DNA of 64,000 nucleotides from Sediminispirochaeta smaragdinae DSM 11293 (GTDB taxonomy: Bacteria; Spirochaetota; Spirochaetia; DSM-16054; Sediminispirochaetaceae), in assembly GCF_000143985.1 (NCBI RefSeq), contig NC_014364.1, positions 4,092,001 to 4,156,000 of the forward strand. The letters are read 5' to 3'. Of this stretch, positions 49,893-56,502 are shown piece after piece. The notes under the pieces were generated by a model. That model was not told where the DNA came from and did not search any database. It was given only the letters and a program-made list of their open reading frames with translations. Position 1 is the first letter of the stretch. Each line of letters opens with the position of its first letter. The position numbers and the translations under genes were made by a program.

Positions 49893-50315
49893 ATGAAAAT
49901 AGCGGTTATCGATGGACAAGGCGGAGGCGTGGGAAAGGCTATTGTACAGGCGCTAAAACCGCATCTTGCTGAAATCGACGAATTGCTTGCACTTGGAACC
50001 AACGCAACGGCAACCGTTACCATGTTGAAATCGGGAGCTTCGATAGGAGCAACCGGAGAGAATGCAATCATCTACAACGCATCACGGGTCGATATTATCG
50101 CCGGCCCCATCGGAATCATCATTGCAAATGCATTGTACGGAGAAATCAGCCCGAAAATCGCAAGCGCTGTTGCGGAGAGTTCGGCTACAAAGGTTTTGAT
50201 TCCCATCGATCGATGCCGGCTCATCATTCCCGGGGCCTCGTCCCGGACCTTACAGACCAATATAAAAGATGCCGTGGAGCAGATCATTGCCTTGATGTCG
50301 GAGGGCTCAAGTTAG
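49893..50315 (+). CDS. DUF3842-family protein
   Basis: 140 residues. The N-terminal MKIAVIDGQGGGVGKAIVQAL is a glycine-rich nucleotide-binding-like segment and the GPIGIIIANALYGEISPKIA and KVLIPIDRC segments are typical of DUF3842. No catalytic site is known. A GAGGAGG ribosome site precedes the ATG. It stands upstream of larE on the same strand with a 281-base spacer holding hairpins, so a link to nickel-cofactor metabolism is suggested by context only. Confidence 0.75.
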   Translation: MKIAVIDGQGGGVGKAIVQALKPHLAEIDELLALGTNATATVTMLKSGASIGATGENAIIYNASRVDIIAGPIGIIIANALYGEISPKIASAVAESSATKVLIPIDRCRLIIPGASSRTLQTNIKDAVEQIIALMSEGSS

Positions 50316-50324
50316 GCCTTGGCT

Positions 50325-50346
50325 ATCACCAGGATTCGTAACAGTA
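50325..50346. repeat. Solo terminal repeat related to the MITE-like ends
   Basis: 22 bases that match the right end at 10257-10278 in 20 positions (ATCACCAGGATTCG, then TAACAGTA instead of GAACACTA). No partner inverted copy was found nearby. It lies 10 bases after the DUF3842 stop codon and may be an insertion scar or part of the leader. Confidence 0.45.
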
Positions 50347-50389
50347 GAAAAGATTAATTGACAGAATCTCGCCGAAAATGGTAGCCTGC

Positions 50390-50513
50390 ATGAACGGAAT
50401 GAATCCGCGAAGGGGCACACGGCCTTAGGCCTATCCGATGAACGGATGGCGCTCATCATAAAAAATTTTCTATCAACGGTACCAAGAAGGACCTCACGGG
50501 AGATGAACTCCTT
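50390..50513 (+). ncRNA. Candidate structured leader upstream of larE, hairpins with ATGAA loops
   Basis: In the 281-base gap before larE, three small hairpins share the pentaloop ATGAA: CGGA/TCCG (50395-50407), CTATCCG/CGGATGG with two end G-T or G-C pairs (50431-50449), and GGAG/CTCC (50499-50511). A fourth ATGAA follows at 50390-50394, and a GGCC/GGCC hairpin is at 50421-50431. It does not fit the cobalamin, Moco or fluoride riboswitch patterns that I know. A cis-regulatory RNA for the lar operon is plausible but unproven. Confidence 0.4.
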
Positions 50514-50596
50514 ACGATTATGCTTAGGGAGTGAGGTATGTCTTGGGAAACTTTCACCGCCTCTCCGGCTACTGCGCCGAGGGAGATGCGGGAAGA

Positions 50597-51424
50597 ATGA
50601 CAATACAGGATAAATATAACAAGCTGTTGGAACATATTTCCGCCTATGAAAGGGTCGCAATCGCCTTTTCAGGCGGGGTCGATAGTACCTTCCTGTGCCG
50701 GGCGGCCATGGAAGCATCGTGCCTACGGCCCATTGCCATAAGCCTTGTATCACCTTTTATCCCCCACCGGGAAGTGGAGGAGGCAAAGGATCTTGCAAAA
50801 AAAATCGGTATCGAACATGTCTGCATCCAAGCCCAGCTGCTTTCCGAAACGGTCGCTGCCAATCCGAAAGATCGCTGTTACCACTGTAAAAGGATCGTCT
50901 TTACCACGCTTCTCCAAACAGCGGCCGGCTACGGCATCGGCACGATCCTGGATGGTTCAAATGCCGACGACCGCTACGATTATCGTCCGGGTATGCGAGC
51001 TCTGGCGGAACTTGGAATCCACAGCCCGCTTTTGGAGATAGGGCTCGGCAAGAACGAGATACGGGAACTTTCGAAAATCCTTCACCTCCCGACTTGGAAC
51101 AAACCATCCTTTGCCTGCCTGGCCTCCCGTATCCCCTACGGAGATCGAATCAACACGGAAAAACTCAAAAAGATCGAGGAAGCGGAGGCTTTCTTGCGGA
51201 AAATCGGCTTTCACCAATATAGGGTACGGGTTCACGGCGACATTGCACGTATCGAGGTTGCCCCGGATGAGCGATTACATTTCTTCAATGAAGAGCGGCT
51301 GGATGAGATTTCAACAGCCTTGAAGCGGATTGGGTTTCTTTACGTCGCTTTCGAGTTATCGGGCTACCGGAGCGGCAGCATGAATAGGGCCATCGATAAC
51401 GAAAATGACAATATAACGTATTAA
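50597..51424 (+). CDS. larE: Nickel-pincer cofactor sulfurtransferase LarE
   Basis: 275 residues from the ATG at 50597; a GTG start at 50531 would put 22 unconserved residues in front. LarE is an ATP pyrophosphatase-type (PP-loop) enzyme that puts sulfur on the carboxylated nicotinic acid mononucleotide. The PP loop SGGVDST is at 25-31. Cys94 and Cys97 (DRCYHCK) and Cys174 (FACLASRIPYG) are all present: the third is the sacrificial-Cys position of Lactiplantibacillus LarE, and the extra CxxC suggests the iron-sulfur type reported in Thermotoga. Followed by larC and larB. Confidence 0.92.
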   Translation: MTIQDKYNKLLEHISAYERVAIAFSGGVDSTFLCRAAMEASCLRPIAISLVSPFIPHREVEEAKDLAKKIGIEHVCIQAQLLSETVAANPKDRCYHCKRIVFTTLLQTAAGYGIGTILDGSNADDRYDYRPGMRALAELGIHSPLLEIGLGKNEIRELSKILHLPTWNKPSFACLASRIPYGDRINTEKLKKIEEAEAFLRKIGFHQYRVRVHGDIARIEVAPDERLHFFNEERLDEISTALKRIGFLYVAFELSGYRSGSMNRAIDNENDNITY

Positions 51425-51436
51425 GGAGTGTTACAC

Positions 51437-52675
51437 ATGAAAACCCTACATTTTGACTGTTTCGCCGGGATTTCCGGTGATATGACCTTAGGAGCCTTTG
51501 TCGATCTGGGAGTCGATCCCCGGCGCATACAAAGCGAACTGGAGAAACTCGGTGTGGATCACTGGAGTCTCGATTTCCACCGTGACGAACGCTGCGGCAT
51601 CACTGGCACCCATGCCGTGGTGAAAGACCTGAATGATCACCATGACCATCACCATGAGCACGACCACGAGCACCACCATCATCACAGCCACACCACATGG
51701 AAGGAAATTCGCTCACTCATCGAGTCATCGAGCATATCAGAAGGAGCGAAAAAACGTGCCATCGATATCTTTTCACGAATAGCGGAAGCGGAAGCTCAGG
51801 TACACGGTAAAAGCGTTGAGGATGTGGCTTTTCATGAGGTGGGTGCCGTCGATTCGATCATCGATATTGTCGGTGCAGCCGTCTGCCTGGATATGCTTGC
51901 TCCTGAACGGATTACCTCCTCACCCATCGAACTTGGCGGGGGGACGGTCGAGTGTGCCCACGGTATTCTACCGGTCCCGGCACCTGCCACCCAGCTTTTG
52001 TGTAAGGGGTTGCCGGTGAAAACCGGTGGCTTCGATCATGAGATGACGACCCCCACCGGTGCCGCGATCCTGGCCTCTTGTGTGGACGAGTTTATCGAGA
52101 GCGGTAGTTTCACCGAGGTACGAACGGGGTACGGCATCGGAACCCGGAAACTGGAAAAGCCGAATATCCTTCGGGTTTCCTGGAGGGAAGAAGTTTCAAA
52201 GGATAAGGCACCTGCCTCTTCGGATAGCGATCCCTGGTTGACCGAGAATCTCATCCAAATCGATACGAACATCGACGATATGGACGGCGAAGCCATGGGG
52301 CATTTTATGCAAAGCCTTTTCGATGCCGGTGCCCTGGATGTAACCTTCATCCCCTGTGTGATGAAGAAGTCTCGACCCGGGACAATCGTCTCGATTCTCA
52401 CCGATGAGAATCATGCCGATGCCCTGCGACGTTGCCTCTTTACCGGCTCTACAACAATCGGTTTCCGGGAAACGGCGGTGACTCGCCGCTTCCTACGCCG
52501 CCAAGAGCATACCGTGACGGGAAGTTTCGGAACGGCCCACGCAAAAACCTCTTTTTTCGGAGAGCGGGCCTTACGAACGAAGATCGAGTTCGAAGATCGG
52601 CTCCGTGTCGCCCGAGAGCAGGGCATCAGCCTCAGGGAGGCTGAGCAGCTGATTGCCGGGGAGCTTGAAAAGTGA
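51437..52675 (+). CDS. larC: Nickel-pincer cofactor nickel insertase LarC, unsplit
   Basis: 412 residues from the ATG at 51437 (AAGGAG 8 bases before). LarC uses CTP to insert nickel into the dithiocarboxylated pincer nucleotide. LarC1 part: HFDCFAGISGDMTLGA, then a His-rich stretch (about 68-85, 13 His among 18), AFHEVGAVDSIIDIVGA and TPTGAAILA; the LarC2 part follows with NIDDMDGEAMGHFMQSLFDAGALDVTF. In Lactiplantibacillus plantarum larC is split into two frames joined by a ribosomal frameshift; here it is one open frame. The His-rich loop could hold nickel. Its stop overlaps larB by 4 bases. Confidence 0.95.
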   Translation: MKTLHFDCFAGISGDMTLGAFVDLGVDPRRIQSELEKLGVDHWSLDFHRDERCGITGTHAVVKDLNDHHDHHHEHDHEHHHHHSHTTWKEIRSLIESSSISEGAKKRAIDIFSRIAEAEAQVHGKSVEDVAFHEVGAVDSIIDIVGAAVCLDMLAPERITSSPIELGGGTVECAHGILPVPAPATQLLCKGLPVKTGGFDHEMTTPTGAAILASCVDEFIESGSFTEVRTGYGIGTRKLEKPNILRVSWREEVSKDKAPASSDSDPWLTENLIQIDTNIDDMDGEAMGHFMQSLFDAGALDVTFIPCVMKKSRPGTIVSILTDENHADALRRCLFTGSTTIGFRETAVTRRFLRRQEHTVTGSFGTAHAKTSFFGERALRTKIEFEDRLRVAREQGISLREAEQLIAGELEK

Positions 52676-53448
52676 CGGAGAGGGAGCGAGAAACATCAAC
52701 CGAAACGATTTTACGCTCGGTACAAGAGGGGAAACTCTCCGTACCGGAGGCGGCAAGGCTTCTTTCGGGTGGCGTCACGACGGACTTGGGCTTTGCGGTG
52801 ATCGATGCCGACAGAAGCCGGCGCACCGGTTACCCCGAAGTGGTCTACTGCAAAGGGAAACGTATCGAACAGGCCGAAGCGATTATGGTCGGAATGAGGG
52901 ATGCAGGATTGCCGGTTCTGGGGACCAGGGCCAGCCGTGAGCTTGCGGAAAGGATCGCTAGACGTTTTCCCGAAGCGGTATACGAGGAAGAAGGAGCCAC
53001 GCTCACCATCGGCAGCCTTACCGATCCTGACGAACGGGAAGGGTTGATTGCCGTGGTCGCTGCCGGGACCTCCGATCGGCCGATCGCCTGCGAAGCACTC
53101 AGGACCGCGGAATTCTTCGGCAGCAGGACCCTGTTCATCAACGATGTGGGGGTCGCGGGAATCCACCGTCTCTTTGCACGCCTGGAAGAGATACGGCAGG
53201 CCCGGGTTGTCATCACCGTGGCGGGGATGGAGGGGGCCCTGGCCAGTGTCGTCGCAGGGCTTGTGGCGGTACCGGTTATTGCCGTTCCCACTAGCGTCGG
53301 CTACGGCGCCTCTTTCGGTGGATTGTCGGCCCTCCTGGGCATGCTCTCGGCCTGTGCTCCGGGAATCTCCGTAGTCAATATCGACAACGGCTTCGGTGCG
53401 GGCTACCAGGCAAACCTCATCAACCGGCAAAAGGTGAAGCATGGTTGA
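52672..53448 (+). CDS. larB: Nickel-pincer cofactor biosynthesis carboxylase LarB
   Basis: 258 residues. LarB, related to PurE, carboxylates nicotinic acid adenine dinucleotide and hydrolyses it, the first step of pincer nucleotide synthesis. Family marks are EVVYCKGKRIEQ, VVAAGTSDRPIACEALRTAEFFG, VITVAGMEGALASVVAGLV, TSVGYGASFGGLSALLGML and the C-terminal NIDNGFGAGYQA. GTG start overlaps larC by 4 bases, and the end overlaps the next gene by 8 bases. The set larE-larC-larB is a complete cofactor pathway here. Confidence 0.95.
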   Translation: MTERERETSTETILRSVQEGKLSVPEAARLLSGGVTTDLGFAVIDADRSRRTGYPEVVYCKGKRIEQAEAIMVGMRDAGLPVLGTRASRELAERIARRFPEAVYEEEGATLTIGSLTDPDEREGLIAVVAAGTSDRPIACEALRTAEFFGSRTLFINDVGVAGIHRLFARLEEIRQARVVITVAGMEGALASVVAGLVAVPVIAVPTSVGYGASFGGLSALLGMLSACAPGISVVNIDNGFGAGYQANLINRQKVKHG

Positions 53449-54292
53449 ACAATTCGACTGGGCTAAGCTATGGATAGAGGCGCAGAAACGAAATATCGCA
53501 TCGGGTCGCGGGGGCGAGTGCTGGCTGGCATGGGACGATGAAGGATCGGCGCGCGCGTACCGGATACGTTCGTCGCAGCAAGAAGCGACACAGAAACGTA
53601 TCAAAGAAATCTGCAATCTTGCGAAACGTGATTGGCATGTTCTGGATATAGGAGCCGGTCCGGGAACCCTTGCGGTGCCGCTCTCCAGGTCGGTCGCTCA
53701 CATCACGGCCGTGGAACCGGCATCGGGTATGGCAGCGGTATTGGAAGAGGAGATCGCCAGCAGAGGCATCACCAATGTCACGATCATCAGAAAACGCTGG
53801 GACGATATCGACGCGATCGCGGATCTAAGGCCGCCCTATGACCTCTGCATTGCTTCCTTTTCCCTCGGAATGCTTGACGTAAGCACAAGCATCAAACAGA
53901 TGATGGCCGTAACGAAGCGCCACATCGTCATCTACTGGCACGCAGGGCTGCAGCCCTGGGATCGTGACGCCATCGAGTTGTGGCCCCTCCTCCATGGTCG
54001 TTCCTACGATCCTATTCCCAAGAGCGACATTGTCTTCAATCTCCTCTATTCCATGGGAATCTACCCGGATATACGGGTTACAAGGAGCCGAGGAACCATG
54101 GTATTCGGCTCTCTTGAGGAGGCCTTAAAACAGTACAGCGCCCGTTTTCATGCCCACAGTCACGAAAAGCGGGCAATACTCATTGATTTCCTAAAACGGC
54201 GAACAATACCCGACGGGAAACGTCTGGTCATGCCCCGCAACCATGTCGGTATGCGGATATCTTGGAACATGGAGGATTATCATGAAGCGTAG
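53441..54292 (+). CDS. Class I SAM-dependent methyltransferase in lar/ABC operon
   Basis: 283 residues with a SAM-binding motif VLDIGAGPGTLAVPLSRSV and an acidic second motif ITAVEPASGM. An N-terminal helical segment (about 1-55) precedes the Rossmann domain. It starts inside the end of larB and ends 11 bases past the start of the binding-protein gene, so it is firmly part of the lar-ABC operon. The other importer's operon also starts with a methyltransferase of a different subfamily (42567-43652). The substrate is unknown; a metallophore or cofactor is suggested by context. Confidence 0.75.
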   Translation: MVEQFDWAKLWIEAQKRNIASGRGGECWLAWDDEGSARAYRIRSSQQEATQKRIKEICNLAKRDWHVLDIGAGPGTLAVPLSRSVAHITAVEPASGMAAVLEEEIASRGITNVTIIRKRWDDIDAIADLRPPYDLCIASFSLGMLDVSTSIKQMMAVTKRHIVIYWHAGLQPWDRDAIELWPLLHGRSYDPIPKSDIVFNLLYSMGIYPDIRVTRSRGTMVFGSLEEALKQYSARFHAHSHEKRAILIDFLKRRTIPDGKRLVMPRNHVGMRISWNMEDYHEA

Positions 54293-55481
54293 ACAACATC
54301 CGGCCACCGGCGTAGCGGCCATCCTTTTTTTCTGCATTGTGAGTTTCGCAGTCGGTGCCCAAGAGCAGTACACCGTAACGGATATGAGGGGCAAGAGTAT
54401 CACCCTACCTAAAGAGCTGGAGCGCATCGCTACCATCGACGACGGTTTTGTTGAGGCGGTTATGACCCACCTTGGGGTCATCGATAAGGTTGTGGCCATC
54501 GGTTCCTGGTCCATGAAACGGGACTATACCTACAGCTTCGTCACCGGTTCAGGAGAGCATTACACCTATTCAAAGGGGTGGAACACCATGAAGTATCTCC
54601 ACCCCTGGCTCAACGATCTTCCCTGCATCAATTCGCCCCAAGGCAATATCCTCAGTTATGAGACCCTTGCACAAAGTAATCCCCAGCTGGTGATCCTGCG
54701 GGTCGGCGACTGCACGGTGGGTAGCGGGAACCGGGAGGCCGTAGAGAAAACCATCTCCACCATCGAAGCAATGGGCTTTCCCCTTTTGGTTCTCTACTCA
54801 CCCAGCTGGTATCGGAATTCTGATCTGACCAGCATGAACGAAGAGATGGCAGTGCTTGGTCGCCTTTTTCACCAGGAAGATAAGGCAAGGGCCCTGGCCG
54901 CCTATCTTCACTCCACCATCGACCTTATACGAGAAAGAACCCAAGCCATTCCCGAGAGCAAGAAATCCCGCCTCCTCATGCTGGGGCTGAATCCCAATAT
55001 AAGGACAAAGGGAGGGACAGGATCGGCATGGGGAATAGATACGCCGGAGTCCTATATCATCGAATCCATCGCTCATGCAAAAAATGCTTTTCGGGAAAAC
55101 GGCAGGGGAAAGATCCTCAATATCGAACAGATATACGCCCTTGATCCCGACGTGATCATTCTGCCCACATCCAACGGTTATCATCCGCCCAGGGAAATCC
55201 TCGAGGGACCCGATTTTAGCCTTCTTTCGGAGCTGCGGGCCATCAAAAACAGGCGGGTCTGCGCCATGCCCTGGACCCCGATGAACTGCTCACGCAGGGT
55301 CGAATACCCCCTCGATATGTTGATCATCGCGAAGGCCGCCTACCCCGAACTCTTCAGCGATATCAAGATTCATGAAGTTGCTTTGCAATTCTACAAAGAT
55401 GTCTACCACGTCGATGATGCAACGGCCCGGGGTTTACGCTCAGCCCAGTGGCTCGACTGGACCGTAGAAAATGACTTCTAA
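54282..55481 (+). CDS. FecB/BtuF-type periplasmic metal-complex-binding protein
   Basis: 399 residues from the ATG at 54282 (GGAGGAT upstream). Signal peptide ends near FAVGA. The mature part fits Peripla_BP_2: VTDMRGKSITLPKELERIATI at the start and DPDVIILPTSNGY late. It is about 45 residues longer than the first importer's protein, with an Asp/Tyr/Trp-rich insertion (around RDYTYSFVTGSGEHYTYSKGW) that may shape the ligand cleft, and a pair of Cys in LPCINSPQG and RVGDCTVGS. Binds an unknown metal complex; its position after larB suggests nickel. Confidence 0.8.
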   Translation: MKRRQHPATGVAAILFFCIVSFAVGAQEQYTVTDMRGKSITLPKELERIATIDDGFVEAVMTHLGVIDKVVAIGSWSMKRDYTYSFVTGSGEHYTYSKGWNTMKYLHPWLNDLPCINSPQGNILSYETLAQSNPQLVILRVGDCTVGSGNREAVEKTISTIEAMGFPLLVLYSPSWYRNSDLTSMNEEMAVLGRLFHQEDKARALAAYLHSTIDLIRERTQAIPESKKSRLLMLGLNPNIRTKGGTGSAWGIDTPESYIIESIAHAKNAFRENGRGKILNIEQIYALDPDVIILPTSNGYHPPREILEGPDFSLLSELRAIKNRRVCAMPWTPMNCSRRVEYPLDMLIIAKAAYPELFSDIKIHEVALQFYKDVYHVDDATARGLRSAQWLDWTVENDF

Positions 55482-56502
55482 GTCGAAGAGTAGTGTCCAA
55501 AAGCTGACCATGATCATGGTGCTCATTCTTCTCCTGGTCGTCGGGGCCCTCTGGGCTCTGACGGCCGGCACCTACGATATATCGGCAGAGGAAACCTATC
55601 ACATTCTCAGGACCAAGCTCATGGGAGGGAATGAAGAGGAGCTCTCCAAGCTTCATACGGTGATCATCTGGACCATCAGAACCCCTCGGGTCCTTCTGGC
55701 CATCATAACGGGCGTCGCCTTTGCCCTTTCCGGAGCGGCCTATCAGGCTTGCTTCAGGAATCCGCTGGTTGAACCATATATTTTGGGGGTCTCCGCAGGA
55801 GCAGCCTTCGGTGCGGCCCTGGGGATCATGTTTCCAACCATCATCAGATCGATGCAGCTCTCCGCCTTTGGCTTCGCGATTCTGGCAGTCGCACTAAGCT
55901 ATACCATTTCAAAGACGAGGGGCAGGGCCCCGGTTATCACCCTCGTCATCTCGGGAGTGGTCATCGGATCACTTTTCTCTGCCATGGTATCGCTTCTGAA
56001 ATATCTTGCTCCGGATGCGCAGCTTCGGGAAATAACCTTCTGGATGATGGGTGGATTCTACTATGCCACCTGGAACGATGTCATTCTCACGGCCCCCTTT
56101 GTGGCCGTTGTATTTGCCATCATATTCCTCACATCCTGGAAGCTGAATATTCTCTCCATGGGAGACGAAGAGGCGAGAACCCTTGGAGTACATCCGGAAC
56201 GATACCGTTTGCTGTATATCCTGTCGACGACGCTGGTAACGGCCCTCTGTGTTTCACAAGTAGGCATCGTGGCGTGGGTGGGACTAATGGCTCCCCATGC
56301 AGCAAGGATGATATTCGGTGCGGACAATAGCTATGTCGTTCCTGCGGGGGCCTTACTGGGAGCGCTCTTCATACTGCTCTGCGATACAATGGCAAGGACA
56401 ATCGCAAGCTCGGAGATCCCCATCGGCATCCTCACCTCCGTCGTGGGGGCCCCATTCCTGATCTATCTTCTGCGCAGCAAGGGTAAGACCCTTTATGGAT
56501 AA
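55471..56502 (+). CDS. FecCD/BtuC-type ABC importer permease
   Basis: 343 residues, about ten helices, FecCD family (TIRTPRVLLAIITG, RNPLVEPYILGVSAGAAFGAALG, GLMAPHAARMIFGADN). ATG at 55471 overlaps the binding-protein gene by 11 bases. It belongs to the second metal-complex importer and is similar in layout to the permease at 45647-46678. Confidence 0.9.
   Translation: MTSKSKSSVQKLTMIMVLILLLVVGALWALTAGTYDISAEETYHILRTKLMGGNEEELSKLHTVIIWTIRTPRVLLAIITGVAFALSGAAYQACFRNPLVEPYILGVSAGAAFGAALGIMFPTIIRSMQLSAFGFAILAVALSYTISKTRGRAPVITLVISGVVIGSLFSAMVSLLKYLAPDAQLREITFWMMGGFYYATWNDVILTAPFVAVVFAIIFLTSWKLNILSMGDEEARTLGVHPERYRLLYILSTTLVTALCVSQVGIVAWVGLMAPHAARMIFGADNSYVVPAGALLGALFILLCDTMARTIASSEIPIGILTSVVGAPFLIYLLRSKGKTLYG

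Follow-up and report, generated by a model that had tools for sequence, protein, structure and literature searches.

Short hairpins with a shared (A)NGNA loop in the leaders of nickel-uptake and lar operons of spirochaetes: a candidate class of leader RNA

The leader of the larE-larC-larB operon of Sediminispirochaeta smaragdinae DSM 11293 carries three short hairpins in which different stems close the same AUGAA loop, and hairpins of this kind recur in the leaders of other spirochaetes. We consider it probable, at roughly six chances in ten, that these leaders represent an undescribed class of spirochaete RNA that switches on nickel-uptake and lar operons when its loops are recognised. Computational analysis finds in members of the class a common loop, stems that are paired and covary, a promoter-like sequence positioned upstream, overlap with terminators or Shine-Dalgarno (SD) sequences, and a recurrent set of target genes.

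Hairpins in the larE leader

In the window (the whole analysed stretch of 64,000 nucleotides from contig NC_014364.1) the leader lies between a DUF3842 protein gene and larE, and is followed in order by larE, larC, larB, a methyltransferase gene, a periplasmic binding protein gene and a FecCD permease gene (Table 1). Many homologues of LarE align from residues 1–6 of the start given here; the GTG at 50531, which the open reading frame lister had chosen, is not conserved in a sibling of the same genus (G001; 94% identity over an 895-bp alignment).

Table 1. Features of the leader and its surroundings, in window coordinates.
Feature	Positions	Strand	Remarks
DUF3842 protein gene (PF12953)	49893–50315	+	Pfam E 3.9e-50; accompanies hairpin leaders in spirochaetes
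Promoter-like TTGACA-N18-TAGCCT, TG before it	50358–50387	+	9/12 consensus matches
Hairpin H1, CGGA-AUGAA-UCCG	50395–50407	+	Weak, −3.1 kcal/mol; core same in sibling
Hairpin H2, (CUA)UCCG-AUGAA-CGGA(UGG)	50431–50449	+	−11.2 kcal/mol; 4-bp core same in sibling, outer pair lost
Hairpin H3, GGGAG-AUGAA-CUCCU	50498–50512	+	3′ arm is anti-Shine-Dalgarno
Competing helix, CUCCU(U) with AGGGAG (SD)	50508–50531	+	CUCCUU/AAGGAG perfect in sibling
Shine-Dalgarno-like AGGGAG	50526–50531	+	6 nt 5′ of AUG 50538; AAGGAG in sibling
20-codon small ORF	50538–50600	+	Good SD; UGA overlaps larE AUG (AUGA)
larE	50597–51424	+	ATG start; TIGR00268 E 1.2e-93
larC	51446–52675	+	Profile match
larB	52672–53448	+	Profile match
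Periplasmic binding protein (PF01497) and FecCD permease (PF01032)	54243–56502	+	Further downstream, same direction

All three ATGAA-loop hairpins that the first-pass annotation had placed upstream of larE were found there; a fourth ATGAA, at 50390, lies outside any hairpin loop. H1 starts 7 nt past the promoter-like sequence and would therefore sit near the 5′ end of the mRNA; a general promoter scan of the window did not have this site among its output. From position 50385 to the AUG at 50538 the sibling differs by 11 substitutions and one indel, none of which falls in the 4-bp cores or the loops of H1, H2 and H3, the pair lost from the outer part of H2 being A-U. The folding energy of the leader as a whole is weak (z-scores of −1.17 for 206 nt and −1.35 for 124 nt), so that the hairpins are undetectable by stability alone. 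Counting both strands, the window holds 14 hairpins with an (A)NGAA loop, and the trio in the larE leader is their sole cluster within 120 nt. With at least two hairpins carrying (A)NGNA loops, a promoter-like site upstream and metal or lar genes downstream, the window leader belongs to the class as defined here.

At the level of DNA homology, a search of 394 genomes with the leader returned only the sibling, the remaining matches at E ≤ 10 being at chance level apart from those to a 33-bp repeat. This stretch lies between the DUF3842 stop codon and the −35 box (window 50325–50356), has a 94% copy elsewhere in the same genome (G000:C1:2723009-2723041), some 100 bp from which lies a third, shorter one. 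It occurs also in the sibling and is possibly a small dispersed repeat. A covariance model of the single hairpin (R1) failed to recover the hairpins of the window itself at E ≤ 10, its information content being too low. Its two matches in the same genome at that threshold have no paired array in the surroundings that were fetched, and ten binding-protein loci of this genome yielded no additional array. One lone hairpin of the ATGAA model (L231, G000:C1:810873-810891) scores 21.6 bits with R1; no paired array was seen near it.

Two reading frames run through this region. The 20-codon ORF is, from its position in the sequence, a possible translational coupling ORF for larE; it differs from its counterpart in the sibling by three non-synonymous and no synonymous changes, and protein constraint is not visible. 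The frame at 50442–50534 (FSINGTKKDLTGDELLTIMLRE; TDGAHHKK...MLRE) has a protein-like start but neither a Pfam match nor a significant PDB match, and was rejected as a coding gene. It is ended by a UGA at 50532 and in the sibling continues to the larE start; the sibling differences in this long frame before larE are non-synonymous only.

A common loop in spirochaete leaders

Hairpin pairs sharing a pentaloop and no more than 130 nt apart were counted in 110 sources (1.54 Mb over both strands). ATGAA ranked first of the 1024 pentaloops, with 8 loci against 5 for its reverse complement and 2 for the next best. These 8 loci, which amount to about five independent lineages, are the window, the sibling, three Treponema larE leaders (LarE 58% identical) and three leaders that follow DUF3842 genes; the larE leaders of termite-gut Treponema have hairpins of the same kind with unrelated stems. 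When no selection was made on pairing (L003, L046 and L047 excluded), at least four Watson-Crick pairs enclosed ATGAA at 18 of its 49 occurrences within 49 leaders and at 23 of 2814 elsewhere (Fisher 7e-23, although such p values overstate independence because the members are phylogenetically related). ACGAA, AAGAA, UGAA, AGAA and CGAA are likewise enriched in leaders. Among 38 instances, which had been picked for pairing and loop, the stem letters agree at 29%, close to random expectation, and the loop is almost fixed.

After inspection of the leaders the loop family was widened to (A)NGNA, covering the pentaloops AUGAA, ACGAA and AAGAA and the tetraloops UGAA, AGAA, CGAA, GGAA, UGUA and CGUA. 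Freely varying loops had been named in the first-pass annotation as evidence that would speak against selection; the variation found is confined to this narrow family.

Among 392 spirochaete genomes 46 have DUF3842, as do 28 of a further 30 from two genera. Leader stretches read at DUF3842 loci number 77: 61 contain one or more hairpins of the family (two or more in 29, exactly one in 32) and the other 16 contain none; seven altered loop definitions gave 1–5 hairpins in total, against 100 for the real definition. This count and the accompanying ones for larE and cbiM loci exclude the sibling (L003), four larE loci near DUF3842, one larE locus with less than 150 nt of upstream sequence and 14 of the 30 cbiM loci. 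The 77 include four loci twice, L147, L152, L153 and L154, in which DUF3842 overlaps larE and the hairpins precede DUF3842 and follow a good promoter-like site; their downstream stretches (no leader) are among the 16 without hairpins, and their upstream stretches (leader) are counted as well. The duplicates L007, L017 and L019 are excluded from all counts, as are L159 and L161.

At larE loci lacking an adjacent DUF3842 gene, 3 of 75 have at least one hairpin and 1 of 75 at least two (one weak array). No array was found in 14 cbiM leaders tested from spirochaetes that lack a DUF3842 match. Among DUF3842 loci of LarE-bearing genomes (L128–L144, excluding L137, L142 and L143), arrays occur only in L141 and in the Treponema already known. 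A promoter-like score of at least 9 is reached in 39 of 59 leaders and in 10% of shuffles, and in 31 of those 39 the −10 box ends 5–14 nt 5′ of the first hairpin.

The weak fold z-score of the window leader might be taken to mean that a common pentamer recurs by chance in a leader that is short and A-rich. This reading is refuted by the pentaloop rank, the enrichment in leaders, the altered-loop controls and the stem covariation described below, and we give it next to no credence.

Stem covariation

Eight orthologous leaders of ECF ATPase genes share a stem with 97.9% pairing, in which four of the six pairs have changed on both sides somewhere in the group; the covariation score was reached by 0 of 500 shuffles, and slid versions were 33–54% paired. 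A second group of eight leaders, upstream of binding-protein genes, has a stem that is 96.6% paired, with two-sided changes in 5 of 11 pairs and 24–59% pairing in slid versions. The first-pass annotation had held that a lack of compensatory changes in the stems would argue against it. Such changes are seen in these two orthologous groups of relatives; between the window and its sibling there are none, because the hairpin cores are identical. Together with the top pentaloop rank and the enrichment in leaders, the covariation upholds its view that the identical loops reflect selected structure and not coincidence.

These results also bear on the idea of a leader peptide or decayed small gene, in which each ATGAA would hold the start codon (Met-Asn/Lys) of a short upstream ORF and the hairpins would be by-products. 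ATGAA words could indeed begin short ORFs, a GMNP reading is common to the Treponema leaders and H1, and the 20-codon ORF with its good SD overlaps larE. The AGAA, CGAA and UGUA loops, however, contain no start codon, the long frame shows only non-synonymous changes in the sibling, and the stems covary in orthologous groups; we regard this explanation as improbable.

A further feature of the leaders before ECF ATPase genes is a largely conserved word, ATCGATAGC, located directly 5′ of the lone AGAA or UGAA hairpin (L015, L026, L034, L199, L207, L212, L214 and L216; alignment A4, columns 2–10).

Overlap with terminators and Shine-Dalgarno sequences

In leader L023, the 3′ arm of the hairpin UAAUAGUC-AUGAA-GGCUGUUA is at the same time the 5′ arm of an intrinsic terminator that is followed by a U run; folded separately, the hairpin has −6.0 and the terminator −19.8 kcal/mol. 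The last hairpin overlaps a terminator also in L013, L014, L021, L024 and L027 and, by reading, in L009, L011, L016 and L022. No intrinsic terminator was found in the window leader.

The 3′ arm is an anti-SD sequence in the window, the sibling, L141 and L018. L141, located before cbiM, has GGGAG-ACGAA-CUCCUU..AAGGAGG, the same layout as H3 of the window. The alternative folds of the window leader are nearly equal in energy (−13.8 kcal/mol with H3 and −13.4 kcal/mol with the 5′ arm of H3 blocked), and in the best fold H3 stands alongside an outer helix across the SD region; in the sibling, L141 and L018 the fold that hides the SD is favoured. In the predicted minimum of L045, the loop and 3′ arm of the second hairpin pair with the SD and the AUG.

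Two very short leaders (L155 and L157, 37–39 nt) before ABC ATPase genes have a single UCCUC-AGAA-GAGGA hairpin, whose arm GAGGA could be the SD sequence itself.

We propose that the 5′ leader of larE-larC-larB would belong to a class whose members have between one and four short hairpins close to the mRNA 5′ end, the stems differing and the loop being conserved. The last hairpin would compete with an OFF structure, either an intrinsic terminator, as in some relatives, or an SD-hiding helix, as in others and in the window. Recognition of the loops would keep the hairpins in place, so that neither the terminator nor the sequestering helix would form and the nickel-uptake and lar genes would be expressed. 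From the terminator overlap and the SD-helix folds we infer this direction, with OFF as the default and stabilised loop hairpins as the ON state. The loops would be recognised by a factor acting in trans, for which a protein is the likeliest candidate, and the signal would be nickel or the lar pathway. Since the SD in the window belongs to the 20-codon ORF that overlaps the larE AUG, control of larE itself would be exerted through translational coupling.

The layout is like that of the dual-hairpin antiterminator sites of ANTAR-domain proteins, known from eut and nas leaders, in which paired hairpins with conserved loops are free in stem sequence and the second overlaps, and so excludes, a terminator (PMC8934654). 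Such an overlap is present in relatives such as L023 and L024 and absent from the window. According to the same source, however, ANTAR-target RNAs have hexaloops with A1 and G4, whereas the loops here are tetra- and pentaloops of the family (A)NGNA, occur in one to four copies and are associated with SD switches as well. The ANTAR domain (PF03861), present in 18 of 44 genomes, is absent from the window genome (G000), the sibling (G001), the genomes of L005, L018 and L029 and two Treponema. An ANTAR target was excluded for the window genome, which has no ANTAR domain; the window leader, moreover, has neither hexaloops following the A1/G4 rule nor a terminator. We consider this explanation highly improbable.

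Target genes

The first genes after 26 of the leaders encode 17 ABC ATPases, five periplasmic binding proteins and one each of FecCD, CbiM, a ZnuA-like protein and a LarE homologue (L014). Longer stretches were covered for several loci, L234 not among them. In L240 (and, by reading, L246) a single leader is followed in one direction by genes for a binding protein, FecCD, an ATPase and FmdE and then by larE-, larB- and larC-like genes; in L242 one leader precedes CbiM and, further downstream in the same direction, larB-, larC- and larE-like genes. The LarE assignments in L240, L242 and L246 were made by reading. What these targets most simply have in common is nickel or the lar pathway, a theme that is unproved for the ECF operons because their PF12822 substrate-specific component has no known substrate. 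The FmdE-family gene of L240 and L246 lies between the FecCD-type transporter and the lar genes, under the common leader.

Recognition of the loops

The first-pass annotation could fit no known riboswitch consensus to the leader, and a search of Rfam agrees: the window has no match at the gathering score, and 17 related loci have no relevant one at E ≤ 1. NiCo and guanidine-II were rejected on these grounds, as were other Rfam families. The missing Rfam match and the compensatory changes in relatives also support its suggestion of an unrecognised cis-regulatory RNA before a nickel-cofactor operon.

Three known systems invite comparison. Guanidine-II (mini-ykkC) RNAs have two small hairpins with an identical loop, ACGR, upstream of transport genes; the present leaders likewise have small same-loop hairpins before transport genes, but their loops are AUGAA or NGNA in place of tandem ACGR tetraloops, and they precede metal and lar genes. 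The NiCo (czcD) riboswitch shares the nickel/cobalt theme but is a four-helix junction before metal exporters, whereas here the hairpins are separate and stand before importers and lar genes, and its curated covariance model finds no match. CsrA needs GGA in a hairpin loop. The small-hairpin arrays near SD sequences resemble CsrA/RsmA-binding hairpins, but the loops are AUGAA in the window and NGNA in the class, with ACGGA found only in or across stems.

It is conceivable, if doubtful, that the hairpins constitute a true riboswitch and bind Ni2+/Co2+, the nickel-pincer nucleotide or its precursor without a protein, in the manner of guanidine-II. The terminator and SD switches are of riboswitch type, the targets are metal and lar genes, the loop nucleotides are almost fixed, and the members have no known RNA-binding regulator in common, ANTAR being missing in 26 of 44 genomes. 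Against this, there is no junction or complex fold, the copy number runs from one to four, the lone 6-bp hairpin of the ECF group is small for an aptamer, and metal binding that switches uptake on would be the opposite of the usual logic. A minimal version, in which a string of (A)UGAA-type hairpins would directly sense nickel, the nickel-pincer nucleotide or a precursor, with copy number setting the response, and would thereby control nickel uptake and lar synthesis in spirochaetes, appears unlikely to us.

Our preferred reading, recognition by a trans-acting factor, includes the special case that this factor is the DUF3842 protein, which, when free of a ligand related to nickel or the cofactor, would bind the NGNA loops and hold the hairpins in the ON form. 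DUF3842 adjoins nearly every array found; the 75 larE loci without it nearby have one weak array, and the 14 cbiM leaders from spirochaetes lacking a match to it have none. This adjacency is partly by design, however, because DUF3842 itself served to find most of the loci. The protein is acidic, with pI values of 5.76 and 5.25. The best of five models, at a pLDDT of 80 against 42–49 for the others, has a Rossmann-like fold, and a fold search gave weak, uninformative PDB matches, none of them a known RNA regulator. Moreover, clostridial loci have no arrays, and some spirochaetes have DUF3842 with no adjacent hairpins. DUF3842 is the best genomic candidate for the loop reader, but we consider this role rather unlikely.

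In four clostridia-like loci without hairpin arrays (L130, L131, L133 and L136), DUF3842 comes after a short ORF starting M-C-E-S. This short ORF resembles CooT.

Implications

Searches of the open-licence literature turned up no paper on DUF3842 and none in which the nickel-pincer nucleotide and a riboswitch occur together; a term search of PMC11109978 and PMC8632094 found none of nickel, cobalt, Treponema and larE. If our reading is true, the nickel-pincer (lar) pathway and nickel uptake would have a cis-regulatory RNA in these leaders. DUF3842, a family with no published function in that literature, would gain a concrete context, and the leaders would add a design in which a variable number of hairpins with one common loop serves both transcriptional and translational switches.
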